DNA from: Parafrankia elaeagni
GTDB taxonomy: Bacteria; Actinomycetota; Actinomycetes; Frankiales; Frankiaceae
Assembly (NCBI RefSeq): GCF_000374165.1
Contig: NZ_KB893731.1
Location: 1-62,294, forward strand
Length of the DNA: 62,294 nucleotides
Direction of reading: 5' to 3'
The position numbers and the translations under genes were made by a program. The notes under the pieces are model-generated. The model searched no databases and was not told the DNA's origin. It saw only the letters and a program-made list of their open reading frames with translations. Below, in pieces: positions 11,737-31,469 of the stretch (position 1 is the first letter of the stretch; each line of letters starts with the position of its first letter).

Positions 11737-11960
11737 TCCGCCGCCGCTGCTCCTCTCCCGCTGCCGTCGATCCGCCCGGCCGTCGATCCGCGGGGCGCCG
11801 AGGTATGGCTAGCCCCAGGGCAAACCGACCAGCCAGCTCGGTCGTGGCGCCCGGTCCGGGTGATTTACCGTCGCGTCAACGGCCGGTCATGGGCCGTACG
11901 ACACGCCGGCCGGGTGCGGGATGCCCGACCGGCGGCGGACGGGGCGGGAGGTGAGGCGGG

Positions 11961-13289
11961 GTGCGGATCCCTGGAGTGGTTCGGCGCCTGGCCCGATCGG
12001 CCTACGGGCCGCAGACGTGGAGGGCGACGATCTTCGTCGCCCAGTCCGCGGTGGTCGCGACGGTGGCGTTCCTCGTGGTGCTGGTCAGCCTGGTCGTCGG
12101 AGTGCCGTTGCTCTTCGTGGCCCTGTTCGGGCTGCCGCTGCTGTGGTTCTGCCTGGTGGCCGCCCGGACCAGCGCCGTCGTCGACGCCTGGCGGTTCACG
12201 GCGGTGCTGGGCTGGCGGCTGTGGCTGCGGCCGCGGGCGGGATCGGTGCCCCCCGGGACGCCCCCGGACCTCGTGCCCGGCCGGCTCGGCCGGGCCGTGC
12301 TGCGGCTGACCAGCCCGGCGGCCTGGCTGGAGGTGCTGTACGCCTTGGTGGTGCTGCCGCTGTTCGGGTGGCTCGGGGCCTGGCTGGTGTTCGTGGTCTG
12401 GGGCGCCGGTCTGTCGTTCACGCTGTTCCCGCTGTACGGGCACGGGCTGGCCGACTCCGGCCGCTTCCTCGGCCTGGACCTGGGCTACCCGGGGTCGCTG
12501 CTGCTCCACCTGGGGATCGGGATCGCCGCTCTGCTCGCGGCGCCGTGGGTCGCCCGAGGGGTGGCCGTGGCCCACTTCGCGGTCGCGCGGCTGGTGCTGT
12601 CCCCGTCGGTCGAGCCCGACCTGCAGGCCCGGGTGGACGACCTGGAGGCGAGCCGCGCCGGCATGGTCGCCGCGGCCACCGCCGAACGCCGGCGCATCGA
12701 ACGTGACCTGCACGACGGTGCGCAGGCCCGCCTGGTCTCGGTCGCGATGACCCTGGGCCGGGCCCAGGAGCGGTTCACCGACGATCCGGAGAGCGCCCGC
12801 GGCCTGGTCGCCGAGGCGCACACCGAGGCCAAGCGGGCGCTGGTCGAGCTGCGTGACCTGGCCCGCGGGATCCATCCGTCGGTGCTCACCGACCGCGGCC
12901 TCGACGCGGCGCTGTCCGGTCTCGCCGCCCGCTCCCCGGTGCCGGTCACGCTCGACATCGAGATCGGCCGGCGGCTGGACATCGCCACCGAGTCCGTCGC
13001 GTACTTCTTCGTCGCCGAGGCGCTGACCAACGTCGCGCACCACGCGCAGGCCACCCAGGTCCGGGTCGGGGTGCGCCCTGCCGGCGACCGACTGGCGGTG
13101 GAGGTCGCCGACGACGGCCGCGGCGGCGCCCGCGAGGACGCCGGGACGGGCATCGCCGGCCTGCGGGACCGCGCCCGCGCCGTCGACGGCGACATCGTCC
13201 TCGTCAGCCCGCCTGGCGGCGGGACCACGCTGCGGATGGAGCTGCCGTGGGCGATGACCGGGGGGACGACCGGAGGGAAGAAGCGATGA
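11961..13289 (+). CDS. Two-component sensor histidine kinase (HisKA_3/NarL-type)
   Basis: 442 residues. Residues 20-205 hold paired hydrophobic segments resembling the actinobacterial 'putative sensor' membrane domain. The dimerisation/phosphoacceptor helix has H251 in 'ERRRIERDLHDGAQARLVSV', typical of kinases that pair with NarL/LuxR-type regulators. The HATPase domain follows with 'VEVADDGRGGAREDAGTGIA' and a G-box near the end. The GTG start has GGAGGTGAG 5 nt upstream. Its stop overlaps the next ATG (ATGA). No response regulator lies next to it in this window, which is unusual; the partner of the kinase is the DUF4097 gene. Confidence 0.92.
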   Translation: MRIPGVVRRLARSAYGPQTWRATIFVAQSAVVATVAFLVVLVSLVVGVPLLFVALFGLPLLWFCLVAARTSAVVDAWRFTAVLGWRLWLRPRAGSVPPGTPPDLVPGRLGRAVLRLTSPAAWLEVLYALVVLPLFGWLGAWLVFVVWGAGLSFTLFPLYGHGLADSGRFLGLDLGYPGSLLLHLGIGIAALLAAPWVARGVAVAHFAVARLVLSPSVEPDLQARVDDLEASRAGMVAAATAERRRIERDLHDGAQARLVSVAMTLGRAQERFTDDPESARGLVAEAHTEAKRALVELRDLARGIHPSVLTDRGLDAALSGLAARSPVPVTLDIEIGRRLDIATESVAYFFVAEALTNVAHHAQATQVRVGVRPAGDRLAVEVADDGRGGAREDAGTGIAGLRDRARAVDGDIVLVSPPGGGTTLRMELPWAMTGGTTGGKKR

Positions 13290-14080
13290 GGGCCGGGTAC
13301 GGACGGGGCCGGATCGCCGCGCTCGCCGCCGGAGCGGTGCTCGCCGCCGCCGCGACGGCGCTGGCCGGCCTGCAGCTCGTCGACTGGACGTCCGGCACCG
13401 TGCAGCGGATCGAGCGGCGCAGCTTCGCCGCCGACATCGAGCGGATCAGTGTGCGGACCGGATCCGGGGAGATCCGGATCGCCGGAGCCCCCGGCGGTGC
13501 GGTCACCGTCGAGGGCAGGCTGTCCGGCTCCGTCGCGGTGCCGCGGCTGTCGGCGGTGGTCCGCGACGGCGTCCTGTTCGTCGACACCACCTGCGGCTTC
13601 GCGCTCTGGTCCTGCCAGGGGTCGCTCGACCTGCGGGTGCCGCCGAACATCCCGGTGTCGGCGCGGACCGGTTCCGGCGCCATCACGGCGACGGACCTGC
13701 CTGCCGCCGCGACGCTGCACACCGGCTCGGGCTCGGTGCGGGTGGACGGCGCCGGCGCGACCCTGGCCCTGTCGACCGGTTCCGGTGATCTTCGCGCCCG
13801 GCGCGTCACCGCCGGGCAGGTCAGGGCTTCCACCGGGTCCGGCAACGTGCGGGTCGAGCTGGACCGGGTCCCCGAGGAGGTCGCGGTCCGGACCGGGTCG
13901 GGGAACGCGGAGATCGTGCTCCCGCCAGGCGGCACGCCGTATGCGACCGACATCCACACCGGGTCGGGGGACTCCCGGATCAGCGTGCCGACCGACCCGG
14001 CGGCAGCGCGTCACCTGCGCGTCTCCACGGGCAGCGGCGACGTGGTCGTCAGCCACCCCGAGCCGGCCGGCGTCGGCTGA
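13286..14080 (+). CDS. DUF4097-family beta-repeat protein, membrane-anchored
   Basis: 264 residues. One N-terminal transmembrane or signal segment (about 10-30, 'IAALAAGAVLAAAATALAGL') is followed by an extracytoplasmic domain with eight TGSG-x-(I/V/L) motifs spaced 15-30 residues apart, the hallmark of DUF4097 beta-repeats. Function is unknown; members often sit beside envelope-stress regulators. The start is the ATG at 13286 (GGAGGG 8 nt upstream), overlapping the kinase stop by 4 nt. A longer in-frame GTG start at 13247 would lie within the kinase and add a charged extension, so I do not use it. The protein could act as the kinase's accessory or target. Confidence 0.85.
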   Translation: MRAGYGRGRIAALAAGAVLAAAATALAGLQLVDWTSGTVQRIERRSFAADIERISVRTGSGEIRIAGAPGGAVTVEGRLSGSVAVPRLSAVVRDGVLFVDTTCGFALWSCQGSLDLRVPPNIPVSARTGSGAITATDLPAAATLHTGSGSVRVDGAGATLALSTGSGDLRARRVTAGQVRASTGSGNVRVELDRVPEEVAVRTGSGNAEIVLPPGGTPYATDIHTGSGDSRISVPTDPAAARHLRVSTGSGDVVVSHPEPAGVG

Positions 14081-14195: not shown

Positions 14196-14975
14196 TCAGA
14201 ACCAGCCGCGGCGGGCGCCGAGGGCCTGGAGCTGCTGGTGCAGCGCGCCGGCCAGGGCGTGGCGGTCGGTGTCGTGGTGGCCCACCCGGAACCGGCTGAG
14301 CTGGTCGCCGCCGGAGTGGAGCAGCCCACCGCGGCGGTCCGCCTCCAGAACGATGTCCATGCCGGAACCGTCCACCAGGAAGGTGACCTCCAGCTCCTTG
14401 ATCCGGCGGGCGTACTCACCGGAGGGCGCCAGCTCGATCTCCTGGTAGAAGGGCAGGTCCGAGCCGTGCAGCCGGCCCTTCTCCACGTCCGCCGACCGGA
14501 ACTGGAAACCCAGGTCGCCGAGCGCGGCGAGGACCGCCTCCTGGGCGGGCAGCGGGTGCACGTTCACCGGGTCGAGATCGCCCGGGTCAAGCGCACCGGG
14601 GATCGACAGCGTCGTGCGCACACCGATCTTCATGCCGTGCAGGTGCCAGCCGCCGACGTCGGTGATCGGCGTCTGCCACGGCACCGCCAGCTCGAAGCGG
14701 CCGGACTGCTGCTCACCGGCGCGGATCACGAAGCCGCCGCCGATCTGCTGGGACCCGAAGGTCACCTGCTCGTACCAGGTGGAGTCCTCCGTCTCGACCT
14801 CGACCGTCGCCTCCAGCGCGACCAGGATCTTCTCGATCTCCTGGTCGACCTTCCCACCGGTGATCGTGGTCTGGCCGGTCACCACCGCGCCCGGCAGGGT
14901 CTCCGGGCGGTCCAGCACCGTCTCCACCTCGGCGGCGCCCACTCCGAGCCGTGACATGAAGCGCTTCATCCCCAT
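14196..14975 (-). CDS. Spo0M-like (SpoOM) arrestin-fold protein
   Basis: 259 residues with Spo0M features: 'MKRFMSRLGVGAAEVETVLD' at the N-terminus, a first beta-sandwich with 'YEQVTFGSQQ', the conserved 'RFELAVPWQTPITDVGGW', and the C-terminal acidic/aromatic part with 'LEADRRGGLLHSGGDQ'. In Bacillus Spo0M affects sporulation and cell division; in actinobacteria these proteins are abundant but poorly defined, cytosolic and without a signal peptide. Monocistronic by context: convergent with DUF4097, divergent from fdhD. The residues 'MGMKRF' offer two close starts; either gives the same domain. Confidence 0.9.
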   Translation of the reverse strand: MGMKRFMSRLGVGAAEVETVLDRPETLPGAVVTGQTTITGGKVDQEIEKILVALEATVEVETEDSTWYEQVTFGSQQIGGGFVIRAGEQQSGRFELAVPWQTPITDVGGWHLHGMKIGVRTTLSIPGALDPGDLDPVNVHPLPAQEAVLAALGDLGFQFRSADVEKGRLHGSDLPFYQEIELAPSGEYARRIKELEVTFLVDGSGMDIVLEADRRGGLLHSGGDQLSRFRVGHHDTDRHALAGALHQQLQALGARRGWF

Positions 14976-16976: not shown

Positions 16977-17984
16977 ATGGGACGCCTCGGGGGCTGGCTC
17001 GGCCGCTACGCGGAGAGTCTTATCTCGCTCGCCGTGGCCTTCGTGGTGGCCATCCTCAGTCTGGTCGACGTACTCGACGTCGATGCCGTGAACAGCTCGA
17101 TCCTGCTGGTACTGGCGCTGCTGGCGGCCGCGGTTCTACGCGACCGCGCGCACGGCGAGACCGTGGAAAGAGCTCTCGCCGCCTCCCGGCGGCACCTGGA
17201 CGAGGTTCTGACCCCACTGACCCCGCAGGTCGCCCGGCTGAATGGTGTGGGGCACACCCTCGAGCTCGCCCGGGTCGCCCTGGACGAGACGCTGAAGATC
17301 CGGGTCATCTCCGGAACGGAGGTCACCGACGCTCTCGCCGAGGCCCGCGCGGACACCCGGGAATGGATGTTCAAGGGAGGCACCGGAACGTACATGAGGG
17401 CGGTGACCCTGCCCAGCTGTGTGGAGGCGGCGCGGCGAGGGCGCCGGGAACTCAAGATGTCCGTCGAGATCATCGACCCCACCGACCGCCTGGTCTGTGA
17501 ACGTTACGCACGGTTTCGTCGGGACATGTCACCCGGGCCGGACGGCACCGGCCAGGAATGGACGTTCCGGCGCACCCGAAACGAGGCCTACGCGATGATT
17601 CTGGCTGCTGCCTGGTACGAGCAGCGGTTCAACCTCCTCGACATCGACGTGCGGCTGTCTCCGGTCATGACGACGTTTCGCTGGGACCTCTCCTCGCACT
17701 GCCTGATCATCACCCAGGACGACCCGGGTGCCGCGAGCACCCTGATCCGCCGGGGCGGGCGCCAGTACGACAGCTGGCGGATCGAGCTCCGCAAAAGCCT
17801 CGACCAGGCCCGGCGCGTGCCGATGGAGCTCGCCGACCAGGCGCCGCTGAGCGAGGAGCCCCGGATCGGCGAGGCGCGGGCCCTGCTCGACTGCCTGGCC
17901 GTCCCACTGCCGGCGGGTCTTCCGGACGCCGAGGTAGAGGACATCATCGACCGCGCGATTCGTGCCCGCAACCCGTATGCGTGA
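16977..17984 (+). CDS. Two-transmembrane protein of unknown function, first gene of the TIR-NACHT operon
   Basis: 335 residues. Two hydrophobic helices (about 14-34 and 39-55) with a short loop anchor a cytoplasmic C-terminal domain of about 270 residues. That domain has a recognisable but unnamed core: 'ISGTEVTDALAEA', 'WMFKGGTGTYMRAVTLPSCV', 'VEIIDPTDRLVCERYARFRR' and 'CLIITQDDPGAAS'. The architecture (2TM plus soluble domain beside an NTPase/TIR protein) is reminiscent of membrane effectors associated with nucleotide-signalling conflict systems, but I cannot assign a family. TACGAT (16964-16969) sits 7 nt before the ATG, marking the likely leaderless promoter of the whole operon. Only 8 nt separate it from the next gene. 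Confidence 0.8.
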   Translation: MGRLGGWLGRYAESLISLAVAFVVAILSLVDVLDVDAVNSSILLVLALLAAAVLRDRAHGETVERALAASRRHLDEVLTPLTPQVARLNGVGHTLELARVALDETLKIRVISGTEVTDALAEARADTREWMFKGGTGTYMRAVTLPSCVEAARRGRRELKMSVEIIDPTDRLVCERYARFRRDMSPGPDGTGQEWTFRRTRNEAYAMILAAAWYEQRFNLLDIDVRLSPVMTTFRWDLSSHCLIITQDDPGAASTLIRRGGRQYDSWRIELRKSLDQARRVPMELADQAPLSEEPRIGEARALLDCLAVPLPAGLPDAEVEDIIDRAIRARNPYA

Positions 17985-17992
17985 GGACCACG

Positions 17993-18721
17993 ATGAATGC
18001 CACGGCGACCGCCCCCATCCTTTCGGTCGCGGACATCCGCGCATCCGTCGCCACCGCCGTCGAAAAATACATCCTCGACCGGGACGACGCGTCGGGGAAC
18101 CCTCGCCCGCTCGCGTTCCGGCATCCTCTCGGTTTCGCGTGCCTACCCGTCCTGCGCGGCGCGGTCGGACTGTGCGTCCATATGTGGACCACCGCCTCGG
18201 TTCGCGACGATCTGACCACATCGCCGTTCCACTGTCATAGCTGGGACCTGCACAGTCTTGTCCTGGAAGGCTCCGTCCTAAATCAGTGCCTTGATGTGCT
18301 TGATATAAAGGCAAGCGAGGCTTACCGGGTTTTCGAGGTGCGGAGTCATCCCGAGTTCGACGAGATCCACGCCAGCCGGGATCTCGTGGTGGTCCGCATG
18401 GGAGAGACGCGGCTCAACAACGCGCGGGACATCTATCATCTGGCTGCAGGGGTCTTCCACCGCACAGTGGTTCCGGGAGGTGAGGCGTGCACAATGGTCA
18501 TCGGTCTGAGTCGGCCCGGCGGCACCGACCGCTCACTGGGCCCACCGAGTACCGGCTCGCATTGTCGGCGTCGCCGCTACTGCGATCCTGAAGAAACCGA
18601 ACAGCTGGCGCATCGGGCGGCGGAGCATCTCCGCGCCGCGACGGCCGAGGGCCTGGTCGAGCGGCTGTTAGCCGCCGTCACCTGCGAATACGTCACCATG
18701 ACCGTCGAGGGAGAGACGTGA
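17993..18721 (+). CDS. Cupin-like protein in the TIR-NACHT operon
   Basis: 242 residues. The middle resembles a single cupin barrel: the first metal-site motif is 'PFHCHSWDLHSLVLEGSVLN' (H80, H82, E92), and a second histidine-rich strand is 'DIYHLAAGVFHRTVVPGGEA' (H149, H156). This pattern suggests a mononuclear metal site as in cysteine-dioxygenase-like or sugar-isomerase cupins; the substrate is unknown. The C-terminal 60 residues are helical. No TM segment. Starts 8 nt after the upstream stop and ends by overlapping the phosphatase GTG (GTGA), so it is tightly coupled. The call as a cupin rests on His/Glu spacing and is moderate. Confidence 0.72.
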   Translation: MNATATAPILSVADIRASVATAVEKYILDRDDASGNPRPLAFRHPLGFACLPVLRGAVGLCVHMWTTASVRDDLTTSPFHCHSWDLHSLVLEGSVLNQCLDVLDIKASEAYRVFEVRSHPEFDEIHASRDLVVVRMGETRLNNARDIYHLAAGVFHRTVVPGGEACTMVIGLSRPGGTDRSLGPPSTGSHCRRRRYCDPEETEQLAHRAAEHLRAATAEGLVERLLAAVTCEYVTMTVEGET

Positions 18722-19617
18722 GCGCCATCAGCCGGCCGCCCGGGTACCGGTGGGATGCCGACCTCGACCTCGACCATGCCCGTGCCGTCGCCGTGGAGGC
18801 CGCCGAGACGGCGGGGGCCATGCTGCGCGGTCGTGCCCTGGGTGAGCTCGGTGTGGCGGCGAAGGGCTCGGCCGGCGACCTGGCAACCGTGCTTGACACG
18901 GCGGCCGAGGAGATCATCCGGGAGCGGATCAGGGTGAGCTTCCCGGACCACCGGATCCGCGGGGAGGAGGGCGGGGCCTCCGGCCCGGCGAGCCGCTGGG
19001 AGTGGTTGATAGACCCGCTCGACGGCACCAACAACATCGCGATCGGGATGCCGAACTACGTGGTGGGCGTCGCGCTGTGCTCGGACCGGCAGCCCACGGT
19101 CGGCGTCGTGCACGACCCGGTCGCGGGGCGCACCTGGTCGGCGCTGCGGGGCGGGGGGATGCACGGCCCCCGCGGCGGGCACGCGGCCAGGGCCCGCGCG
19201 AAGGGGCGCGACCACAGCCTCACGATCGCCTGGACCCAGGGCTACCAGGTCGGCCGGCACAACATCGCGGCCCGGGCCCTCAAGTACGTGCTCGACGCGG
19301 CGGCGCTGCGCATCCTGCCCCTCTGGGCGCCGCTCGCCTCCTGGTCGATGCTCGCGCGGGACGACATCGACGGCTTCATCGGCTACTGCGCCGAGGAGGT
19401 CGACCTGCCGGCCGGCTATCTGCTCGCCGTCGAGGCCGGCGTGACCGTCCTGACGCTCGACGGCGGCCATTTCGACGGCCGCATCGGGCAGGCCGCCCGC
19501 CGCCGCTCGTTCGTCGCGGCCCGGCCCGGGCACGTCGACACGTTGCTGAGCATCGTCAAGACCGCGGCCGCGCTCGAGCCGGAGCTCCCTGACATCCGTG
19601 TCCCGGGGCTGACCTGA
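18718..19617 (+). CDS. Inositol monophosphatase-family phosphatase in the TIR-NACHT operon
   Basis: 299 residues with the complete metal-dependent phosphatase signature: 'RGEEGG' (E83, E84), '[11 protein letters not shown]' (D99, D102, T104) and a C-terminal '[17 protein letters not shown]' supplying the last aspartate (about 225). The family dephosphorylates inositol phosphates, 3'-phosphoadenosine nucleotides, fructose bisphosphate or histidinol phosphate. The small substrate loops do not let me choose. GTG start overlaps the cupin gene by 4 nt; the stop overlaps the next start as TGATG. Being locked between a cupin and a TIR/NACHT gene, it may process a phosphorylated nucleotide signal, which is inference. 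Confidence 0.88.
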
Positions 19618-22600
19618 TGGCCGCCGACGCGGCCGACGCCGCAGGGCCGGTGGGGCCGGCGGGGCCGGTGGGCGAAGCGGTCCGGCCGCCGTCCTTCTTC
19701 ATCAGCTACTCGCCGACGGACGTCCGCTGGGCGAGCTGGATCGCCTGGGAGCTGGAGGACGCCGGGTACCGCACGGTGCTGCAGGCCTGGGACTTCGTCC
19801 CGGGAACCAACTTCATGGAGTTCATGGACCGCGGGGTCACCGAGGCCCATGTCGTCATCGCGGTCATGTCCCACCACTACCTGAAGTCGCGCTGGGGCAT
19901 GCTCGAATGGCAGACCGCGATGCGCGGGAACCCGAACGATCCGAAGAGCCGGCTCATCACCGTGCGCACGGACGACGCGCCCCTTGACGGCTTCCTGGCG
20001 GTCGTGACCTTCGTCGATCTCGCCGGTGTGCTGGATGCCGACGAGGCTCATCGTCGCCTCCTCGACGGGGTGGCCGAGTCGGTCGCCGGCCGGGCGAAGC
20101 CCGCGGCCAGACCCCCCTACCCGCTGGAGAAGGCGCCCGCGGCAGCCGCCGTCGGCGTGGCGGTCGATCGGGCTGAGCGCCGCCGTCCCCGCATCCCACC
20201 GGCCTTCCCTCCGACCCAGCCGACCCGCAGGCGTTCGGCTGGGTCGGTGACGGTGCTGCACCTGCCCGGCCCCCGCTTCGGGCGGGCCGACGCCTCCGAC
20301 CTGCGGGACCGGATCTGGGGGCGGCTCGCCGCCATCGAGCGGGCGGGCGGGCCCGCCCCCGACCTGGTGGTGATCGCCGGCGATCTCACCGAGAGCGGGA
20401 CCCGGCGCCAGTTCGACGCCGCGCTGGACTTCGTGAGCGACCTGCGCGCGATGCTGAGCCTGGAGACGCGGCGCATCCTGCTGGTGCCGGGCCGGCACGA
20501 CGTCTCCCACGCGGCGTCCGAGGCGTACTTCGCCACCTGCCGGGCGGACGACAACGAACCGCGCCGCCCCTACTGGCCGAAATGGCGCCACTACAGCCGG
20601 ATGGTCGCCGAGTTCTACCAGGAGGTGGACGGCGCCCTGTTCGACCCGGCGCAGCCGTGGCACCTGCTGCCCGTCCCGGATCTCGCCGTGGTGCTGGCCG
20701 GGATCAACACGACGATCGCGCAGAGCCACCGGGACGAGGATGACCACGGCCTGGTCGGCGCCGAACAGGCAGCCTCCCTGGAACGGCACCTCGCGCTCTT
20801 CGAGGACGACAACTGGCTGCGGATCGGGGTGGCGCACCACGCTCTGGCCGCGCCGTCGGTCTCCCGCACCGACACGATCCGCGACACCCAGCTGCTCCGG
20901 GAGAAACTGGGCCCCCGGCTCAACCTCCTGATCACCGGCCGCGGGGACACGGCTCCCGGTCTCGCTCCGGTCGTCGTGACGCCCCCGGCCCGGGAGGGCC
21001 TCCAGCTGCTGGAGATCCGTCAGGACGGCCTGCGTTCCTGGCGGGAGGGTGCCGACGGGAAGCAGTCCGAGGCCTGGCGGGCGCACCGGTGGGTGTCGGT
21101 GGGCGCGGCCTTCTCCGCGGCCCGGCCCGGGACGACCGGGCACGGCGACCCCGGCCCCGCCGAGCCGTCCGGAGCGAGCGCCGGCGGCGACGATCCGCGG
21201 ACGGTGGCGGCTCCCGACCCGGCAGAGGAACTGCTGGAGCAGGTCGCCGAGGTCTGCCGGGTCAGCAACGAGCGCGCGCGCATCCGGCGCGTCGGCGGCG
21301 AGGCGCCGCACCTGGTCGTCACCCGCCCGGGTGACGGCGTGACGCCGGTGGTCCGCATCGGCGCGCATGTCGGTGAGCTCACCCATGCCGACCTCGAGCG
21401 TTTCGCCGACCGGGTGCGGGCCCTCGACCCGGACGGCGAGACCGAGCTGATCTGCTCCGTGCCGCCCTCCCCGGGGCTGCGCCTGGAGGCGAAGCGGTGG
21501 GGGATCCGGCTGCGCAGCTTCCTGGAGTTCCAGGGCCTGCTCGACCTGCGCGAGTTCGTCGCCCGCCAGAGCGCCGACATCGCCGCCGACCGGCGTTACC
21601 CGCCGTCGCTGTACGTCCCGCAACGGTTCCGGGAGATGGTCGGCGCGACCCGCACCGTCCGGGAGGGCCTGAGTGAGGAGCTGATGCGGCTGGTCGCCGA
21701 GGAGGAGGGCCGGTTCGTCCTGGTCCTCGGTGACTTCGGCCGGGGGAAGACCTTCGCGCTGCGGGAGGTGGCCCGCCGGATCCCGGCCGAGCTGCCCCAC
21801 CTGACACCGATCTTCATCGAGCTGCGGGCCCTCGACAAGGCACATTCCATGGACGGCCTTGTCGCCGCGCACCTGGCCAACCACGGGCAGAGCCTCGCCG
21901 ACCTGCAGGCCTTCCGCTACATGCTGCGCGAAGGCAGGATCGTGCTGCTCTTCGACGGGTTCGACGAACTGGCGAGCCGGGTGACCTACGAGCGGGCCAC
22001 CGAGCACCTCGCGACGATCATCGAGGCCACCGAGGGCAACGCGAAGGTGATCGTCGCGAGCCGCACCCATCACTTCCGGACCGACGAGCAGGTGCTGACC
22101 GGGCTCGGCCACCGCGTCGGGCTCCTCCCGCGGCGCCGGGTGCTCACCATCGAGGACTTCGGCTCGTCCCAGATCCATGACTACCTGCGCAACCGCTACC
22201 GGGACGAGGCCACCGCCGACACCCGCCTGCGCCTCATCAACGGCATCCGGGACCTGATCGGGCTGTCCCGCAACCCCCGGATGCTCAGCTTCATCGCGGA
22301 CCTGCCCGCCGAGCGGCTCACCCGGGTCGCCGGTGCCCACGACACGATCAGCGCTGCCAGCCTCTACCGGGAGATCCTCGACAGCTGGCTCGCCTTCGAG
22401 ATCAACCGCACCCACGGCGTCGCGGGCAGCCCACCGGGGCTGGGACTGACCGACATGTGGACGGCCGTGACGACCCTGGCGCTGCGGCTGTGGACAACGG
22501 AGGAGCAGCTGCTGCGGCTGTCCGATCTGCGCGAGGTCGCGCAGACCCTGGCCGGCATGACGGAGGAACGCCCGTCCCCGGCCCAGACCGAGCACGCGCT

Positions 22601-25600
22601 CGGCGCCGGAAGCCTGCTGGTCCGCACCGAGGACGGGCTGTTCGGCTTCATCCACTCCTCGGTGGCGGAGTGGCTCGTCGCCAACGAGATCGCGACGGCT
22701 GTCTCGTCCCGCGGTGGCGCCCGGACGTCCACCGTCGCCGTGGCCACCGCGGCGGCCTCGGACCTGGCGGACGTCGCGGAGCCACTGGGGCACCGCCAGC
22801 TGTCCGCGCTCACGGTCGAGTTCCTCTGTGACCTGGCCGATCCGAAGGCGCTCCGGAGCTGGACCAGAAGTGTGCTCGACGACCCGGCGTCCGACGAGAC
22901 CTCCCGGGCGAACGCAGTGAAGATCAACGTTCGGATGCGCACCCCGGTCCGCGGTGACCTGCGCGGCGCCTCGATGCGCGGCGAGGACCTCTCGCACCGT
23001 GAGCTGCGGGGTGTCGACCTCACCGGCGCCGACCTCGCCGAGACCCGTCTGATCGGTGCCGACCTGACCGGCGCGACGCTGCGCGGGGCCACCCTGGCGG
23101 GTGCCTGCCTCGACGGCGCGAAGCTGCGCGGCGCGGATCTGCGCGAGGCGGACCTGACCGGTGCCCGTCTGCTCGGTGCCGACCTGCGGGAGGTGCGGTT
23201 CGCCGGGAGCCGCTGGCCGCGGGCCCTGGTGATCAACGCCGGTGCCGCGCCCGAGCTCGTCGCCCGGGCACGGGCGTCCGGCGCCGCCGTCATGCCGGGC
23301 GGCAAGGTCGAGGTCGGGCTGGCGCCGCCCGCGGTCAGCGTCAACTTCGGCTTCGAGACCGGCCGGCTCCCCACGCCGGTCAGCTACAGCCCGGACGGTT
23401 CGATCATGGTGATCGCCGGTGAGGACGGCGGCGCACTCGTCTGCGACACCGACGGCCGGCCGCTGCGGACACTGCAGGGCCACACGGGTCGGGTGTACGC
23501 CGTGGCTCAGAACGACGACCACATCGTGACCGTGTCGATCGACCGGGTGATCCGGTTGTGGGACTCCCGGGCCGGCGAGCCGCTCGGCGACCTGCGCGGG
23601 CACCAGGACTGGATCTGGCCCGTCGCGCTCAGCCCGGACGGCGTGCTGCTCGTCAACGGCGACCGCGGGGGCAGCGTCCGGGTGTGGGACATGGCCGCGC
23701 GGGAGATCAGGCACACCCTGCCCGGCCACGGGGAACGGGTCTGGAGCGCCGCCTTCCACCCCACCGCCCGGCTGCTCGCGATCGGGGACGACACCGGAAC
23801 CGTCCGGCTGTGGAACCCCTATGACGGCAGGCTGGTGAAGGTGCTCGGCGGGCACGCGGGCAGCGTGTTCCGGCTGGCCTTCGCCGCGGACGGCGCGGAG
23901 CTGGCGACCGCCGACGGCCAGGGGGACATCCGCCGGTGGGACAGCGCCACCGGCCGGCTCCGGCAGGTCCTGCGCGGCCACGAGAACGCCGTGTACACCC
24001 TGGACTACCGGTCGGACGGCGCCGAGCTCGCCAGCGGCGACACCCGCGGCGTGGTGCGGGTGTGGGACCTGCGCACCGGCGAGGGGCGGGTCGTCGTGCG
24101 GCACACCGGCGCCGTCTACCGGGTCGCCTACAGCCCCGACGACACGATCCTCAGCTCCGGCGACAGCGACGGGGTGGTGCAGCTGACGAGCACCGCGACC
24201 GACATCCGCCTGCACACGCTCGGCGGTCACCGGGGCTCGGTGTGGCCGCAGGTGTTCCGGGGCGACAGCCAGCGCCTGGTGACCGCGAGCAACGACGGGA
24301 CCGCGCGGATCTGGGAGACCCGCACCGGGACCTGCCGTACGACGGTGACCGGGCACGGCCGCCGCAACACGATGGTCCGCTTCAGCTCGGACGGCCGGCT
24401 GGTGGCGGTGTGCGGCAACGACGGGCTGGTCCGGGTGTGGGACCCGCGGACCGGCCGGCGGCTCGGCCAGCTCGGCGGCATCTCCGACCGGGTCGTCTCC
24501 GCGCTGTTCAGCCCGGTCGACCACCGGATCACGGCGAGCAGCAGCGCCGGCTCCGCCCACGTGTGGAACCTGCAGCCCGTCGCCGAGGCTCTCGGCGGGC
24601 TGGACGAGAGCTCCACGGAGCCCGCCGGCGGCGCGGACCAGTCCGGCGGCCCCGGCCCCGGCCCCGGCGCCGACGACGTCGATGCGTCTGACGTCGATGC
24701 GTCTGACGTCGGGGTGTCCGAGATCGGGACGTCCGAGATCGGGGTGTACGAACGCGAGGTGCGGGTGGGCACCGAGCACGTCTGGGCCGAGGCCTACGAC
24801 TCCGACGGGGACGTCCTCGCCACCGCCAACGACGACGACTCCGTCCAGCTCTGGTACCGCACGACGGGGCGGCATCTGCTCACCCTCGCCGACCACAACG
24901 GCCGGGTGCGGTCCCTGGCCTTCAGCCCGGACCGCCGGATCCTGGCCTCCGGCTGCGATGACCGGCTGGTGCGGCTGTGGCTGGTCGAGGCGAAGGTCCC
25001 CAGCCGGCCGGAGGACTGGAAGGCAGGCCCGCCCCTGATCCTCGAAGGGCACACCGACCGGGTCTACGCCGTCCGTTTCAGTCCCGACGGGTGCCACCTC
25101 GCCAGCGCGAGCAACGACGGGACAGCCCGGATCTGGGACGTCGCCTCCGGGACGTGCCTGCACGTCCTCGGGGACGGGACGGCGCGGCTGTGGGCCGCCG
25201 CGTTCAGCCCGGACGGCAGCTTCCTCGCCACCGCCGGGGACGACCTTCTCATCAGGCTGTGGGACCCGCGTTCCGGACGGCAGATCGCGGCCCTGGCCGG
25301 GCACACCCGCCGGATCTGGTCGATCGACGTCTCGCCGGACGGCCGGCTGTTGGTGAGCTGTGGCGATGACGGCACCGCCCGTCTGTGGGACGTCTCCCGG
25401 CAGTCCCGGCAGGCCGAGGCCACCCGGGCGCCGACCGTCACCCTGGTCGGGCTCGACTCCGGGTGGGCGGCCATCGCACCGGACGGGCGGTACAAGTTCG
25501 CCGGGGACGTCGCCGGCCAGGTCTGGCACGTGATCGGGATGTCCCGCTTCGAACTCGGTGAACTCGACGGGCACCTGGGTGACGTGCGTCGGCTGGCGCT

Positions 25601-25616
25601 CGGCGAGCTGTTCTGA
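19617..25616 (+). CDS. TIR - degenerate metallophosphoesterase - NACHT - pentapeptide - WD40 mega-protein
   Basis: 1,999 residues. (1) TIR domain, about 24-160: '[20 protein letters not shown]', then W93-G-M-L-E97, a WxxxE motif whose Glu is catalytic in NAD-cleaving TIRs. (2) Calcineurin-like phosphoesterase, about 211-470, lacking several metal ligands (DxH is G218/R220, GNHD is GRHD at 292-295, GHxH is GRGD), though G255-D256 remains. (3) A conserved pre-NACHT region, about 520-690. (4) NACHT/STAND NTPase: Walker A GDFGRGKT (705-712), Walker B '[11 protein letters not shown]' (D780, D783, E784). (5) Pentapeptide A(D/N)LxG repeats, about 1114-1199. (6) About 15 WD40 repeats, 1250-1935, split after the tenth by a DVDAS-type repeat linker. 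(7) Conserved C-terminal module ending '[10 protein letters not shown]'. The design is a sensor (propellers), an NTP switch and an NAD-consuming effector. No secretion signal. Confidence 0.92.
24675..24749 (+). repeat. 15-bp tandem repeats in the WD40 linker
   Basis: Five contiguous 15-bp units of the type GACGTCGATGCGTCT, the first two identical and the others diverged, encode SDVDA/SEIGV-like repeats between the tenth and eleventh WD repeat, after a Gly/Pro-rich stretch. They probably form a flexible hinge between two beta-propellers. Confidence 0.85.
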
Positions 25617-25630
25617 GCGGCCAGTGCGTG

Positions 25631-25688
25631 GATATCGCAGCGCGGGCCGCCCAGCCGAGTGAACCCGGTGCCCCGTCGCGGCGATATC
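25631..25688. repeat. Inverted repeat GATATCGC / GCGATATC after the TIR-NACHT gene
   Basis: Perfect 8-bp arms (25631-25638 and 25681-25688) flank 42 bp with further GC pairing, beginning 15 bp after the stop codon. It may be the operon terminator or a regulatory dyad for the next gene, whose start is 36 bp downstream. Confidence 0.5.
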
Positions 25689-25723
25689 AGCCGCTGCCGC
25701 AGATTGCTGACTAGGGTCATGGT

Positions 25724-26899
25724 GTGGCGGTAGTGCAAGTATCCCTGCTGGCGATCGCCGTCATCGGTGTTTTCGTGCCCCGGTTGCCGAGCTGGTTGGT
25801 ACCCGTCGCGGCGGCCGTCGTTCTTCTGCTTACCGGCGGTATTTCGCTCAGCGCGGGCTCGGAGGTGCTCGAACCACTCGTCGCGCCTCTGGCCTTCCTG
25901 CTGCTGGCCGTTCCCCTCGCGGTGATGCTCGACCGGGTCGGATTCTTCAGTGCCGCGGCGGCTCTCATCGACCGGGGGCGTGACCCGAGGCTCGGGCTGT
26001 GGGCGTTGGCCGCCTCCGTCACCACCTTTCTGAACCTCGACGCCTCCGTCGTTCTACTCACGCCGCTGTACATCCGATTTGCCCGCCGGCACGGCCTGGA
26101 TGCCCGACTGCTGGCATTTCAACCGGTCCTGCTCGCCTGCCTGGCGTCGAGTGCGCTTCCCATCTCCAACCTCACGAATCTGATCGCGGCGGATGCCCTC
26201 GATATCGGATTCGAGGACTTTCTCCTCCGCCTCGGCCCGGCGTCACTCGCGGCGGTCGTCGTCGGCTGGTGCTGCTACCGGCGGCTGCCGGGCAGCGTCG
26301 ACCGGCCCGTACCGGTACACGAGCCGGTGGACCGGCGAGCACTGCGCCTCGGCCTGCCGATCGTGGTCTTCGTGATCCTCGGGTTCACCGTCGGCGACGC
26401 GCTGGGCATCAAGGCCTGGATGATCGCCCTCGTCGCCGACGCCGTGCTGCTGGCGATGACACGGGATCTGCGCTGGGGGGACTTTCCCTGGGGAGCGGCC
26501 GGTCTCGCCGTCGGCCTCGGCCTGCTCGCCGCCGCGGCGGCACCGCACCTGGGAATCGACCGGGCCTTCGACGACAGCGGCTGGCTCGCACAGCTGCGCA
26601 CCGCGCTGCTCGCCATGGCGGCGGCCGACACCATCAACAATCTGCCGGCGCTGCTCGTCAGCCTGCCCGGCCTCGAATCCGGTTCGGACCACATCTGGCC
26701 GTTGCTGTTCGGGGTGAACTTCGGCCCGATCTTCGTCCTGCACGGAGCGCTTGCCGGGCTGCTGTGGCGTGACACCGCGGCACGCCTGGGAGTGCAGGTA
26801 AGCGCCTGGGAATACACCCGGGTCGGCGTTCGGGTGGGTACCCCGGCTTTGCTGGCCGGCCTGGCGATCGTCCTGGCGACCGGAGCCCTCGTCGACTGA
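25724..26899 (+). CDS. ArsB/NhaD/SLC13-type permease (ion or anion transporter)
   Basis: 391 residues, nearly all hydrophobic, about 10-11 helices. The two family repeats are visible: 'LNLDASVVLLTPLYIRFARR' and 'AAADTINNLPALLVSLPGL' carry the pore-lining re-entrant motifs typical of the ion-transporter superfamily (ArsB, NhaD, DASS), and 'SNLTNLIAADALD' corresponds to the first-half signature. The substrate (arsenite, sodium or dicarboxylate) cannot be told. The GTG start is preceded by TAGGGT (25712-25717), 6 nt upstream, so it is probably leaderless. No ars genes adjoin. It is transcribed in the same direction as, but separately from, the TIR-NACHT operon. Confidence 0.85.
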   Translation: MAVVQVSLLAIAVIGVFVPRLPSWLVPVAAAVVLLLTGGISLSAGSEVLEPLVAPLAFLLLAVPLAVMLDRVGFFSAAAALIDRGRDPRLGLWALAASVTTFLNLDASVVLLTPLYIRFARRHGLDARLLAFQPVLLACLASSALPISNLTNLIAADALDIGFEDFLLRLGPASLAAVVVGWCCYRRLPGSVDRPVPVHEPVDRRALRLGLPIVVFVILGFTVGDALGIKAWMIALVADAVLLAMTRDLRWGDFPWGAAGLAVGLGLLAAAAAPHLGIDRAFDDSGWLAQLRTALLAMAAADTINNLPALLVSLPGLESGSDHIWPLLFGVNFGPIFVLHGALAGLLWRDTAARLGVQVSAWEYTRVGVRVGTPALLAGLAIVLATGALVD

Positions 26900-26967
26900 C
26901 CGCCGCAGCCGCAGCCCGCACTGCTCATGACAGCCGCCCGCACCCCTCGTGACAGGAGTACCCGCCC

Positions 26968-27732
26968 ATGCCGCGTTCCGCCGCGGACCGTGCTGTGAGC
27001 CCCGCGGTCCATGTCCTCGACGTCGTCCTGCTGCCCTCACCCGAGCTGTCCGCGACGACCGCGGGGCAGAGCCGCTCCCTCGCCGGACGCATGCGTCAGA
27101 TCGGAAACCCGTCCCACTTCGCGCTGGGCAGCGACTTCCCGGCCGGCGACGCCGCGGTGTGCGCTCCCCATGTGTCGCTGTTCATGTTCGTGGCCACGGA
27201 CGCCGACCTTCCCGCCGTGGTGGCCGCGCTGCACGACGTGGCCAGTGGCGTGCCGCCGCTGGACGCGGTCGGCGCCCGGTACGGGCACAACCCGCACGGG
27301 GCGCCGGAGCTGTACTTCGAGCGGTCGGCTGCCTGGTTCGACCTGCAGCGGCTGGTCGTCCCGGCCTTCGAGCCGATCCGGCGCGGCCGGCTACGCGAGG
27401 CCGACCCGGCGGGAACACCGCTGTCCGCGGTGCTCGCCGACGATGGTCCCCGCTGGGCCGCCCGGCGGCGGCAGCTGCTCGCCTACGGCTACGACGAGAT
27501 CACCGACGAGGTCGACGACCTGTTCCACCCGCACATCACGCTGGCCTGGCCCGAGCGGGCCGAGCCCAGGGTGGAGCTCGGCCCGCTCGGCCGGGCGGAC
27601 GGTGTGCGTGCCACCTTCGACCGCCTCGCCGTCTGCGGCATGAGCGCGTGGGGCACCTGCACGACCCTCGTCGGGGCCGCCACCACCGCGGGCCGGTGTG
27701 CCGCCGAGCACGGTGCCCGCCCCGGCACCTGA
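26968..27732 (+). CDS. 2H phosphoesterase superfamily protein (2'-5' RNA ligase-like)
   Basis: 254 residues with two HxT/S motifs set about 120 residues apart: H68-V-S70 in 'CAPHVSLFMFVA' and H189-I-T191 in 'LFHPHITLAWPER'. These are the two catalytic histidine motifs of the 2H family, which hydrolyse cyclic phosphodiesters or act on 2'-5' linkages in RNA or nucleotides. Cytosolic, no TM. A Shine-Dalgarno-like CAGGAG lies about 10 nt before the ATG. The gene is alone between a permease and a convergent aldo/keto reductase. Nearness to a TIR operon is suggestive because 2H enzymes can cleave cyclic nucleotides, but 1.3 kb and another gene separate them. Confidence 0.82.
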   Translation: MPRSAADRAVSPAVHVLDVVLLPSPELSATTAGQSRSLAGRMRQIGNPSHFALGSDFPAGDAAVCAPHVSLFMFVATDADLPAVVAALHDVASGVPPLDAVGARYGHNPHGAPELYFERSAAWFDLQRLVVPAFEPIRRGRLREADPAGTPLSAVLADDGPRWAARRRQLLAYGYDEITDEVDDLFHPHITLAWPERAEPRVELGPLGRADGVRATFDRLAVCGMSAWGTCTTLVGAATTAGRCAAEHGARPGT

Positions 27733-27774
27733 CGGCGCGGCGGCGCCTGGCGGGGGCGGCGGCTCAGCGCCCGG

Positions 27775-28761
27775 TCAGGACCGGCCCACGCGTTCCGCCG
27801 CGAGCGCGGCCCAGGAGGACGGGCCGGTCAGCGGGGCGAAGCTGTCCGCCGCGGTGGTCAGCGCGTCGTACTCGGCGTCGGTGAGAGTGATGTCGGCGGC
27901 CGCGGCGTTGCTCTCCGCCTGCGCCACGCTCGACGCACCCGGGATCGCGACGACCTGTGGGTGGTGCACCGCCCAGGCGAGGGCGATCTGGGCGGGCGTC
28001 GCGTCATGCGCGGACCCGACCTCGCGCAGCACGTCGAGCAGCGGGGTGAGCCGGGCGAGGTTCTCGGTGAGGAACAGCGGGTTCGCGGCCCGCACCGCGC
28101 CGCGTGGGCGCGTCGTGACGTCGTAGCGCCCCGACAGCAGACCCTGTGCCAGCGGGCTGTAGGCGATGATCAGACGGCCCTCCCGCCGTGCGAACGGGAT
28201 GAGGTCGCGGTCGGCCTGGCGGCGGATCAGGCTGTACTGGACCTGGTTGGACAGCACCCGGCCGCCGAGTGCCTCCTCGGCGGTGCGCCAGCGGTCCAGC
28301 GAATAGTTGCTCACCCCGACCTCGTCGACGAGGCCGACCCGGCGCAGCGAGGCCATCCCGCGCATCGTGGTGCCGTCCCGGACGAGCGGATTGGGCTGGT
28401 GGATCTGGTAGAGGTCGATGGTCCGCACGCCGAGCCGGTTCGCGCTGGCGACGGCGCGCTGCTCGACGACCGGTGCCACCGGCAGCACCGGGAAGATCTT
28501 GGTGGCGATGAACGCGGCCTCGACGGGCACCGGCGCGTCGGCGAGCGCCGCGCCGAGAATGCGTTCACTGCGGCCGAAAGCATACATCTCGGCGGTGTCG
28601 AACAAGGTGACACCGAGCTCGAGGGCACGGCGGACGATCAGCGCGGCCTCCGTGCCCGCGTAGGACGGCCCATAGCCCCATTCCCGTGAGCCGAACTGCC
28701 AGGTCCCCAGGCCGATCTTGGAGATCTTCTTGGTAGTGGAGACGGCTTCCACGTAGCGCAT
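27775..28761 (-). CDS. Aldo/keto reductase
   Basis: 328 residues, a full-length NADPH-dependent aldo/keto reductase barrel. The catalytic tetrad is visible: Asp and Tyr in 'LFDTAEMYAFGRSERILG', Lys in 'AAFIATKIFP' and His in 'DLYQIHQPNP'. NADP-binding loop residues are in 'VVAIPGASSVAQAESNAAA'. It reduces aldehydes or ketones; the natural substrate is unknown. An alternative start a few codons in, after 'MRYVEAVSTT', cannot be excluded. Convergent with the 2H gene and divergent from the TerD-AIM24 gene. Confidence 0.93.
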   Translation of the reverse strand: MRYVEAVSTTKKISKIGLGTWQFGSREWGYGPSYAGTEAALIVRRALELGVTLFDTAEMYAFGRSERILGAALADAPVPVEAAFIATKIFPVLPVAPVVEQRAVASANRLGVRTIDLYQIHQPNPLVRDGTTMRGMASLRRVGLVDEVGVSNYSLDRWRTAEEALGGRVLSNQVQYSLIRRQADRDLIPFARREGRLIIAYSPLAQGLLSGRYDVTTRPRGAVRAANPLFLTENLARLTPLLDVLREVGSAHDATPAQIALAWAVHHPQVVAIPGASSVAQAESNAAAADITLTDAEYDALTTAADSFAPLTGPSSWAALAAERVGRS

Positions 28762-28973
28762 GGCATCCAGTCAACGCCACCGCCGCGCCGACGGCGAGGG
28801 GAGACGGGGCGGCGCGGATCGTGATGTCCGAGGTCCGACAGGTGCTCGGTAGGATCCACGTCCTGTCAGATGCGGGCCGGGCTGCTAGTTTTCCGGACAT
28901 CCGGTCCGTGGGGTTCGGTGGGACTCCGGCGTGGGCCCGCTCCCGCGGCGACGCACCGACGGAGGGGAGAGCG

Positions 28974-30704
28974 GTGGCAACGCAGTTCAGTCGAGGGCAG
29001 AAGTCCCCCCTGTCGGCGATCACCGCTGGCACCGATCTGTACATCGGGATCCAGATCACGGCGCCGGGCGACTGGGACGTCTCCTGCTTCGGCCTGGATG
29101 GTGCGGGCCGGCTCTCCGACGACCGGTACTTCGTCTTCTTCAACCAGCCGCGGTCACCCGAGTCGTCCATCCAGCTGCTCGGCACGCAGGCCGGTGACAC
29201 CCAGTCGTTCCGGTTGACTCTCGACAAGGTGCCCGACTCGGTGCACAAGCTGTCGTTCTGCGCCGCGCTCGACGGTGCGGGCAGCGCGGCGCAGATCGCC
29301 TCCGGGTACTTCCGGATCGTGGCCGGCGGTACCGAGGTGCTCCGTTACGCCTTCACCGGCGCCGACTTCTCGGACGAGCGCGCGGTCATGATCGGCGACG
29401 TCTACCGCAAGGGCGTCTGGCGGGTCGCGGCGGTCGGCCAGGGTTTCAGGGGCGGGCTGGCGGAGCTCATCCGCAGCTACGGCGGTGAGGTCGCGGACGA
29501 GCCGGAGCCGGAGCCCGCTCCCGCCCCGGCCGGGCCGCCCGGCTTCGGGCCGCCGCCCGGCGCGGCGCCAGCCGGCCCGCCGGCGTTCGGCGCTCCGGCC
29601 GCACCCACCCAGCAGTTCCCGCCCGCTCCCGCACCGGCGTTCAACCCGCCGCCGGCACCGCCCGCACCGCCACCCCCGCCGCCGGCGCAGGGACCGGGCC
29701 ACGGGCAGCCGCAACCGGCCTACGGGCAGCCGCAGCCGGGCTATGGCCAGCCACAGCCCGGCTATGGTCAGCCACAGCCCGGATACGGCCAGCCGCAGCC
29801 GGCGTACGGGCAGGCCGGTGGGCCCGCCGGCTACCCTCAGGCCCCGCCGGCTCCGCCCGCGCCAGGAGGTTTCGGCGGCCAGGGCGGTCCCGGGGGCCAG
29901 GGCGGTCCCGGGGGCCACGGGGGCCACGGAGGTCCCACACCCGGCGGCTTCGGGGCCGGGCCGGGTGGGCAGCAGCACCCGCCGGCGGGCTTCGGCGGGC
30001 CGACGCAGATACTCCCGACCCAGGTTCTCCCCTCGCAGGCCCAGCCGATCCAGCCGGGTGCGATGAACAGCCTCAACCCGTACCGGGAGGTGGCGACGGC
30101 GGGCCGCTGGACCCAGCAGAACAGCAAGCTGGTGAAGGTCACCCTCGGGGCGGAGGCGCTCGCGCTGCGTGGAGCGATGGTCGCCTACCAGGGCAACGTG
30201 GACTTCGACTACAAGAGCGGCGGAATCCGCGGCCTGATCGAGGAAAAGCTCACCGGCCAGGGTCTGAAACTGATGACCTGCAAGGGCAACGGTGAGGTCT
30301 TCCTCGCCCGGGACGCGTCCGACCTGCACATCGTCGATCTCGGCGACAAGTCGCTGTGCATCAACGCGAAGAACCTGCTCGCGATGGACGCCACCGTGCG
30401 CTCCGAGGTGCGCCGGATCGAAAGCCCCGGAATCCCCGGCGGGGGTTTCTTCCACTTCGAGGTGTCCGGGCCCGGGTCGGTGGTGGTGATGACCAAGGGG
30501 ACACCGATGACGCTCAACGTCGCCGGGCCGACGTTCGCGGACATGAACGCGCTGGTGGCGTGGACGTCCGGTATGCGGGTGAGCGTTTCCACGCAGGTCC
30601 GGGTCTCGCGCCAGATCTATGCGGGGGCGAGCGGTGAGTCGTTCGCGCTCCAGTTCATGGGATTCGCCGGTCACTTCGTCGTGGTGCAGCCCTATGAGGT
30701 CTGA
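28974..30704 (+). CDS. TerD-domain protein fused to an AIM24 domain by a repeat-rich linker
   Basis: 576 residues. Residues 1-172 are a TerD (tellurium/chemical-stress resistance) domain: it opens 'ATQFSRGQKSPLSAITAGTD' and has 'DRYFVFFNQPRSPE' with acidic Ca2+-binding candidates. A linker (175-360) is almost pure Pro/Gly/Gln with five 7-residue YGQPQPG units and GGQGGP repeats. Residues 365-576 are an AIM24 (DUF124/TIGR00266) beta domain with 'VTLGAEALALRGAMVAYQGN'. The start is the GTG at 28974 with GGAGGGGA 5 nt upstream; the frame is open further upstream but without a domain. It heads three AIM24 genes in tandem. TerD proteins act in membrane-linked stress complexes; the AIM24 role is not established. 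Confidence 0.9.
   Translation: MATQFSRGQKSPLSAITAGTDLYIGIQITAPGDWDVSCFGLDGAGRLSDDRYFVFFNQPRSPESSIQLLGTQAGDTQSFRLTLDKVPDSVHKLSFCAALDGAGSAAQIASGYFRIVAGGTEVLRYAFTGADFSDERAVMIGDVYRKGVWRVAAVGQGFRGGLAELIRSYGGEVADEPEPEPAPAPAGPPGFGPPPGAAPAGPPAFGAPAAPTQQFPPAPAPAFNPPPAPPAPPPPPPAQGPGHGQPQPAYGQPQPGYGQPQPGYGQPQPGYGQPQPAYGQAGGPAGYPQAPPAPPAPGGFGGQGGPGGQGGPGGHGGHGGPTPGGFGAGPGGQQHPPAGFGGPTQILPTQVLPSQAQPIQPGAMNSLNPYREVATAGRWTQQNSKLVKVTLGAEALALRGAMVAYQGNVDFDYKSGGIRGLIEEKLTGQGLKLMTCKGNGEVFLARDASDLHIVDLGDKSLCINAKNLLAMDATVRSEVRRIESPGIPGGGFFHFEVSGPGSVVVMTKGTPMTLNVAGPTFADMNALVAWTSGMRVSVSTQVRVSRQIYAGASGESFALQFMGFAGHFVVVQPYEV
29700..29804 (+). repeat. 21-bp tandem repeat encoding YGQPQPG units
   Basis: Five 21-bp units, slightly diverged at third positions, encode (Y/H)GQPQP(G/A). 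Third-position divergence shows selection on the protein repeat rather than a recent DNA expansion. A second low-complexity block encoding GGQGGPGG follows at about 29869-29930. Confidence 0.85.
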
Positions 30705-30791
30705 CGTGTCCCGCCCCGGCGGTTGGCGGGGCGCGCGGCGTCGCGGGGCACCCGCGGTAGATCGCGGCACCGGGCGAGAGGGGAGCAGGTC

Positions 30792-31469
30792 GTGCACGGC
30801 AGCCTGATGGACCACTACGGTCCCACGCCGATCATGGATCGGATGAGCAGGCACGGATCCAAGATCGCCAAGGTCGTCATGCAGCCCGGCCAGGACCTCT
30901 TCGCCCGGGTCGGCTCGATGATCGCCTACGAGGGGCTCATCGACTTCAACCCGCAGCCGCCGCAGCTCGGGCGGATCGCGTCGTCCTGGGCGACCGGCGA
31001 AGGCGTCCCGCTGATGACGGCCACCGGGCAGGGCCTGCTCTACCTGGCCGACTACGGCAAGGAGGTCATCGTCGCCCAGCTCGCCGGCGAGGGCCTCTCG
31101 ATCAACGGCAAGAACGTCCTGGCCTTCGACGCGAGCCTGCAGTGGGGCATCGAGCGGGTCAAGGGCGTCAACATGCTCTCCGGGATGGGGATGTTCAACG
31201 TCGTCGTCCGCGGGCACGGCTGGGTCGCACTCACCGCCAAGGGGAACCCGATCATGCTCGACACCCGGGAGGCCGCGACCTTCGTCGACACCGACGCGCT
31301 CGTCGCCTACACCGACGGCCTGCGGGTGGAGCCGCGCCGCACCGCCCGCCTGGGCGGGCTGATCGGCCGCGGCTCGGGCGAGGCGTTCCAGCTCGGCTTC
31401 TCCGGCCAGGGTTTCGTCGTGGTACAGCCGAGCGAGGACGAGCGCCCGTCGTTCTCGGTGCGCGGATGA
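30792..31469 (+). CDS. AIM24 family protein (second copy)
   Basis: 225 residues, a stand-alone AIM24 domain: 'SKIAKVVMQPGQDLFARVGS', 'MIAYEGLIDFNPQ', 'GLSINGKNVLAFD' and the C-terminal 'AFQLGFSGQGFVVVQPSE', the last matching the ends of the other two copies. Mitochondrial AIM24 (inner-membrane organisation) gives the family its name; the bacterial function is unknown. GTG start with a GGGAG ribosome site; a longer frame from 30723 has no domain. It sits 87 bp after the TerD-AIM24 gene and 28 bp before the third copy, so one transcript is likely. Confidence 0.88.
   Translation: MHGSLMDHYGPTPIMDRMSRHGSKIAKVVMQPGQDLFARVGSMIAYEGLIDFNPQPPQLGRIASSWATGEGVPLMTATGQGLLYLADYGKEVIVAQLAGEGLSINGKNVLAFDASLQWGIERVKGVNMLSGMGMFNVVVRGHGWVALTAKGNPIMLDTREAATFVDTDALVAYTDGLRVEPRRTARLGGLIGRGSGEAFQLGFSGQGFVVVQPSEDERPSFSVRG

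Follow-up and report, generated by a model that had tools for sequence, protein, structure and literature searches.

The six genes described here lie on contig NZ_KB893731.1 of the actinobacterium Parafrankia elaeagni (Frankiaceae), of which we analysed a stretch of 62,294 nucleotides (the window), and they follow one another on its forward strand around a gene for a large multidomain protein. Gene A (16977-17984, +; 335 residues, from the open reading frame (ORF), its translation and its hydropathy) encodes a two-transmembrane (2TM) hairpin joined to a soluble alpha/beta domain; gene B (17993-18721, +; 242 residues) encodes a cupin-like protein, on the basis of its ORF, the family alignment and weak Cupin_2 matches; gene C (18718-19617, +; 299 residues) encodes a phosphatase of the inositol monophosphatase (IMPase) superfamily (PF00459, 3e-36); and gene D (19617-25616, +; 1,999 residues) encodes a protein in which Pfam and alignment place TIR, pseudo-phosphoesterase, NA-iREase3, NACHT, pentapeptide and WD40 parts. 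A preliminary description of this DNA had presented A to D as a four-gene operon, joined by an 8-nucleotide (nt) gap between A and B, a 4-nt overlap (GTGA) between B and C and a one-base overlap (TGATG) between C and D, and all four ORFs, their positions and their junctions are as it claimed. The row itself comprises six genes, continuing on the same strand past 25616 with gene E (25724-26899, +), a CitMHS/ArsB-type permease of the ion-transporter superfamily (PF03600, 3.1e-16; PF02040, 1.2e-7), and gene F (26968-27732, +), a 2H-type phosphoesterase (PF13563, 1.5e-5; motifs H68/S70 and H189/T191), and it ends at a convergent aldo/keto reductase gene (27775-28761). A longer ORF at 26949-27884 was considered as the sixth gene and rejected as a shadow in another frame, the frame given for F being the conserved one. 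The block is 96-99% identical to that of Parafrankia colletiae, the closest named record.

Protein D is composed of a TIR domain (residues 27-148), a degenerate calcineurin-like phosphoesterase domain (~213-450), an NA-iREase3 domain (537-644), a NACHT domain (~699-863), pentapeptide repeats (~1120-1200) and WD40 repeats (~1255-1999), an NLR-like layout with TIR as the N-terminal effector and the two kinds of repeat at the C-terminal end. Pfam recognized NA-iREase3 (4.6e-31), a domain that the preliminary description had not named, and WD40 (2.2e-102) on the whole protein, and TIR_2 (4.8e-33), Metallophos (PF00149, 7.4e-5), Pentapeptide (3.5e-25) and NACHT (PF05729, 1.3e-10; 41.8 bits against a cut-off of 26.7) when D was scanned in pieces. 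The TIR domain contains E97 within RWGMLEWQ, which we take from its position in the motif to be the catalytic glutamate, and Glu is kept here in 16 of 16 aligned D sequences; Walker A (GK[ST]) and Walker B (LLFDGFDE) are intact in 13 of 13. Both features had already been read from the window. No high-identity WD40 repeats, a trait of fast-evolving fungal sensors, were found, since Tandem Repeats Finder on 22800-25700 returned only arrays of the pentapeptide region and linker.

The canonical metal-binding motifs of calcineurin-like phosphoesterases are DxH, GDxxD, GNH[DE] and GHxH. In the corresponding domain of D, DxH at motif I and GNH[DE] are absent from 14 of 14 aligned sequences and GHxH from all 13 that span the domain, while motif II reads GDLT in 12 of the 14 and GELT or GNLT in the other two. 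The working phosphoesterase that had first been proposed for D is not supported, given this degeneration of the catalytic motifs in every orthologue read, and the domain is best called a putative pseudo-enzyme that still resembles Rv0805-type phosphodiesterases, Rv0805 being the best match of the MPE-iREase profile in the PDB (1.3e-5).

The two small proteins at the head of the row match no Pfam family themselves, and A belongs to no known family. Hydropathy of A places two hydrophobic segments at ~15-33 and ~35-53, forming the N-terminal hairpin; no Pfam family scored above its cut-off in any of the 18 family members, comparison with the PDB by sequence gave no match (best E 0.027), and the predicted structure was unusable (mean predicted local distance difference test score (pLDDT) of 38). 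The B protein of the window is itself unmatched in Pfam and, by sequence, in the PDB, and its predicted structure was equally unusable (mean pLDDT 36). Within the B family, H80 and H82 (HxH) and H156 are present in 21 of 21 members and D or E occupies position 85 in 20 of 21, making H80, H82, D85 and H156 candidate metal ligands; the cupin-like assignment is based on these kept residues together with Cupin_2 hits that are weak and limited to 5 of the 21 members (best 0.0038). Cupins are defined by HxH(x)3-4[ED] and G(x)2H motifs within a beta barrel. At most loci the A gene abuts or overlaps the B gene.

Proteins C and F belong to better defined families. C aligns with inositol monophosphatases in the PDB (E 5e-40), and the metal ligands D60, E83, E84, D99, D102 and D229 (GEE, DPLDG[TS] and a later D) are kept in 13 of 13 sequences. 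Both HxS/T motifs of F are kept in 6 of 6 aligned sequences; its PF13563 score of 25.6 bits lies slightly under the Pfam cut-off of 27, and comparison with the PDB by sequence gave nothing below 0.07.

Recurrence of the set was followed in 394 genomes of the class, including all 36 of the window's family, D being traced with a specific profile of its phosphoesterase and iREase region; the profiles designated A3, A4 and A5 hold sequences from the sampled genomes, and 9 of the 19 genomes with D contributed to A3. The D profile matched 32 of the 394 genomes, 19 of them at 498 bits or more and the others at no more than 346 bits; these lower matches are confined to the window's family, represent Frankiaceae paralogues and are excluded from the 19. 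A was matched in 21 and B in 27 of the 394. B is present in all 19 genomes with D, in 17 on one contig within ~14 kb and in two (G306 and G557) across contig ends, where the B part and the D part end in a matching way; the largest B-D gaps are ~14.1 kb (G486), 8.8 kb (G344), 8.1 kb (G399), 6.9 kb (G455), 6.6 kb (G578) and 2.7 kb (G302), the others being closer. Genomes with only D paralogues gave no B match, with the exception of G300, in which A-B-C lies elsewhere in the genome. Of the 19 D genomes, 16 carry A, each with C adjoining it; the A gene of G316 (locus L053, 9407-10285) is read in three frames and is either broken in the genome or misassembled. A permease gene lies next to D in all 19; in Frankiaceae it is situated downstream, elsewhere the two genes are divergent. 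F follows E in all seven Frankiaceae D loci (one truncated at a contig end) and in one of the 12 others. As a unit, the proposed four-gene operon is not supported, the parts present at every D locus being B, D and E. Outside the 394-genome count, Nonomuraea gerenzanensis (NZ_LT559118.1) carries A-B-C followed by E divergent from D.

Co-occurrence had been set beforehand as the test of the system idea, and the idea survived it, with B at 19 of 19 D loci and A and C at 16 of 19, though genomes of one family are not independent events; owing to this kinship the Fisher values (1.6e-21 for A-D and 2.0e-26 for B-D) are not probabilities of independent events. Relatives in at least three other locus groups were found for 33 of 57 block ORFs against 1 of 110 flank ORFs, the single flank ORF being a TIR paralogue. 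At the looser level of a single other locus group, relatives were found for 44 of 57 block ORFs and 23 of 110 flank ORFs, most of the latter coming from loci L040, L046 and L086. The block counts are low because the ORF picker misses some true genes. Since the block recurs, in distantly related actinobacteria too, and most flanking genes do not, the gene set is not a product of chance, and because E stays with D even as its side and orientation vary between families, the linkage survives rearrangement. Gene order, conservation of the set and the catalytic residues kept or lost are direct observations.

Several loci connect the set with enzymes of NAD+ and ADP-ribose metabolism. In locus L015 (genome G302), the operon of B contains upstream of B a YffH/AdpP Nudix gene (TIGR00052, 125 bits against a cut-off of 79.6) and, at 10547-11713 (-), a gene whose product is TIR-like in one part (PADLOC TIR effector, 2.4e-6) and matches Macro weakly, under the cut-off (0.0011). 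The spacings in this operon are of a few bases, D, E and F adjoin on the opposite strand, and the Nudix and TIR-like/Macro genes occupy the places of A and C. Genome G620 (L054) encodes an A-like protein and a B protein fused to a Nudix domain (1.4e-15). The 2H, Macro, Nudix and TIR families are treated as parts of an NAD+-ADP-ribose (ADPr) network in the portion of Iyer et al. (2022, PMC9503650) available to us, so that F, the Nudix and TIR-like/Macro genes of L015 and the B-Nudix fusion are separate links of the set to enzymes of that network. The same four findings lend circumstantial support to the earlier proposal that the phosphatase, cupin and 2TM proteins process a signal.

We favour, with a probability of about 0.55, the reading that the set forms a conserved system of NLR-like (STAND) type for conflict or stress responses, which would work via NAD+/ADP-ribose-type chemistry, with defence as the likeliest purpose by analogy with TIR-STAND proteins elsewhere. 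In the scheme that follows, every activity, the order of the steps, the trigger and the purpose are ones that we infer. D would be the receptor, with the WD40 and pentapeptide repeats either holding it off or sensing the trigger, and the pseudo-phosphoesterase and inactive REase-like domains may serve as binding or regulatory modules. The kept Walker motifs suggest that ATP hydrolysis or oligomerization of the NACHT domain switches D, and the kept Glu suggests that TIR, the sole N-terminal enzyme that still looks active, then cleaves NAD+. From the gene context, B and C are predicted to act on the TIR product, and F, Nudix or Macro proteins to supply further or alternative steps: B and its usual partner A would form a response or modifying pair, while C and F might modify the NAD-derived product or clear it, as Nudix or Macro proteins may do at other loci. 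The fixed A-B pairing points to A as either a membrane output acting through the 2TM hairpin or an anchor that localizes B, and the permease E would be needed at every D locus. Relative to the preliminary interpretation, the recurring set, the TIR glutamate and the Walker motifs carry over; the active phosphoesterase in D and the limit of four genes do not.

A number of findings weigh against this reading. The families of C and E are broad metabolic ones. Three of the 19 D loci (G302, G310 and G319) keep B, D and E and lack A and C, although long sequence on both sides is available only for G302. Part of the synteny is inherited, as L040, L046 and L086 have flanking genes in common. PADLOC gave no match for A, B, C, E and F and, apart from WD40 similarity, only partial and weak ones for D, and the anti-phage models of NCBIfam and PADLOC match D only far below their cut-offs (for example, 19 bits for the NCBIfam NACHT antiphage HyoA model, cut-off 1200). 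No copy of A or B was found on viral contigs. Finally, G300 carries A, B and C without D beside them and G446 and G543 carry A and B without C or D; the small genes are thus not dependent on D. Divergent from the D-less A-B-C operon lies a gene for a further TIR protein with several hydrophobic stretches, likely membrane segments (L016, ~11459-13756, +).

Pairs of A and B without D also occur on two plasmids. Methylobacterium plasmid NZ_CP099612.1 encodes two hypothetical proteins, from genes with an 11-nt overlap, that are distantly related to A (hhalign E 4e-15, 152 columns) and to B (1.4e-14, 165 columns), and Rhodococcus opacus plasmid pCP135 (NZ_CP093382.1) carries an A+B pair with a 17-nt overlap (hmmsearch 1.2e-20 and 2.7e-12). 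A recombinase gene follows each pair, C and D were undetected within the stretches examined, and no phages carrying the Methylobacterium A-like protein were found. On the strength of these D-less pairs, A and B look like an autonomous cassette that in actinobacteria has become linked with C, D, E and F. Beside A-B on the Methylobacterium plasmid, genes for a Dam methylase, a metallophosphoesterase and an ORC-CDC6-like ATPase (L087, 1602-6500, -) form a group looking like another defence cassette. In three genomes, a distant B-like cupin gene overlaps or follows the gene for a 2TM protein of a different soluble part, with a convergent Nudix gene (L117, 6897-9604; L118; L119). In G579, G128 and G447, weak B-like cupins, which are accompanied by another 2TM protein and by a Nudix gene in convergent orientation, were not counted as the system, and G435 was likewise left out.

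The plasmid pairs bear directly on a doubtful alternative, abortive NAD depletion, in which D would work by itself as the NADase receptor, leaving A, B, C, E and F as recovery or housekeeping genes that limit damage through NAD or phosphate salvage and ion balance, with no signal involved. D combines a sensor, a switch and a TIR domain in a single protein, the families of C and E are metabolic, an ADP-ribose diphosphatase-family Nudix protein together with F would recycle ADP-ribose products, and Swarozyc offers a precedent as a TIR-like NADase acting by NAD depletion in the part of PMC13174449 available to us. A pure recovery role is nevertheless hard to reconcile with A+B on plasmids that carry no detected D, and B accompanies D at 19 of 19 loci against 16 of 19 for C. 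Developmental or stress signalling of filamentous actinobacteria, rather than an anti-phage function, is a still less probable account, in which D would sense a cue of internal origin, with the small genes acting in membrane or envelope physiology. It would agree with the finding of the set mostly in 5-9 Mb genomes of a few actinobacterial families, with a Spo0M gene close to A-B in 8 of the 22 sequences tested and with the ordinary chromosomal neighbours in the window (aldo/keto reductase, TetR regulator, amino-acid permease), but presence is patchy (19 of 394 genomes, and D in two of the seven genomes listed for the window's genus), Spo0M varies in orientation and part of its surroundings is inherited. 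A loose grouping of unrelated genes without common function, retained together by descent, to which the common flanks of L040, L046 and L086, the 96-99% identity of the window and L003 and the separation of some A-B-C and D by 7-14 kb with other genes between would conform, is very improbable and largely refuted by the excess of recurrent block ORFs over flank ORFs, by the retention of E through changes of side and orientation and by the touching or overlapping of A and B at most loci and again on two plasmids.

The favoured conflict-system reading places the set near several described systems. Like bacterial NACHT/Avs-type STAND proteins, D has a central NACHT with intact Walker motifs, an N-terminal effector and a C-terminal repeat sensor; it differs from them in its combination of TIR, pseudo-phosphoesterase, inactive REase-like, NACHT, pentapeptide and WD40 parts and in its five partner genes. 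With the TIR NADase systems (Thoeris, CBASS TIR effectors and Swarozyc) D shares a TIR domain with a catalytic-type Glu (16 of 16), and NAD-derived chemistry is likely to be common to them; in D, however, TIR and receptor lie in one chain, and its PADLOC TIR-effector matches are weak. Thoeris is defined by a ThsB TIR protein together with a ThsA SLOG/Macro/TM effector gene. Among the six genes, Pfam and PADLOC showed no ThsA-type or SLOG partner and no CD-NTase, in which the set differs from Thoeris and CBASS.

STAND NTPases of actinobacteria whose parts include TIR, calcineurin, pentapeptide repeats and beta-propellers have been described (Kaur et al. 2020, PMC7159879; Kaur et al. 2021, PMC8195603), and in the parts of these papers available to us the multi-gene NTP-dependent conflict systems of multicellular bacteria resemble D in its STAND, TIR, calcineurin, pentapeptide and propeller parts; unlike those systems, the six genes here include no vWA-MoxR or GTPase that we could see. 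The NAD+-ADPr network (PMC9503650) is matched by the 2H gene F and by the Nudix and Macro domains beside or fused to B elsewhere, whereas the available portion of that paper showed no IMPase-superfamily protein within a set of this kind. The words "cupin" and "inositol" are absent from PMC7159879, PMC8195603 and PMC9503650, and a literature search that included available parts of PMC10907252 and PMC13118837 and left most subscription journals uncovered found no description of this gene set. TIR-STAND receptors are a known kind, and the A-B cassette is the newest part of the set.

We consider it a tentative and rather unlikely extension that A and B form a mobile two-gene cassette for reading or remodelling an NAD-derived messenger, the cupin modifying or binding the TIR product and A making a membrane response, and that actinobacteria wired this cassette to D, to phospho-hydrolases (C, F or Nudix/Macro proteins) and to a permease, yielding a pathway with a new messenger. 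If true, this would be a genetically defined case of an NLR-like TIR receptor tied to fixed small-molecule enzymes and to a membrane protein outside known families, and the fate and the reader of the TIR product would become directly testable in actinobacteria. Even on a sober reading, the locus provides a six-gene unit with clear mutants (E97, Walker A and the histidines of the cupin), together with a plasmid cassette of two genes that is small enough to be studied by itself.

Further genes were noted around these loci. The window contains a Spo0M gene at 14196-14975 (-; PF07070, 1.8e-79), and the other sequences with Spo0M near A-B are L003, L053, L040, L046, L047, L048 and L086; orientation varies, and three of the Spo0M-bearing loci have wider inherited flanks in common. 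In G307, the D cluster is followed ~3 kb downstream by a gene for a second, separate TIR protein (L012, 13694-15121, +). Past the operon, the window encodes a TerD-AIM24 fusion protein followed by a second AIM24 protein (28821-32508, +) and, at 43538-46051 (+), a GGDEF-EAL protein.

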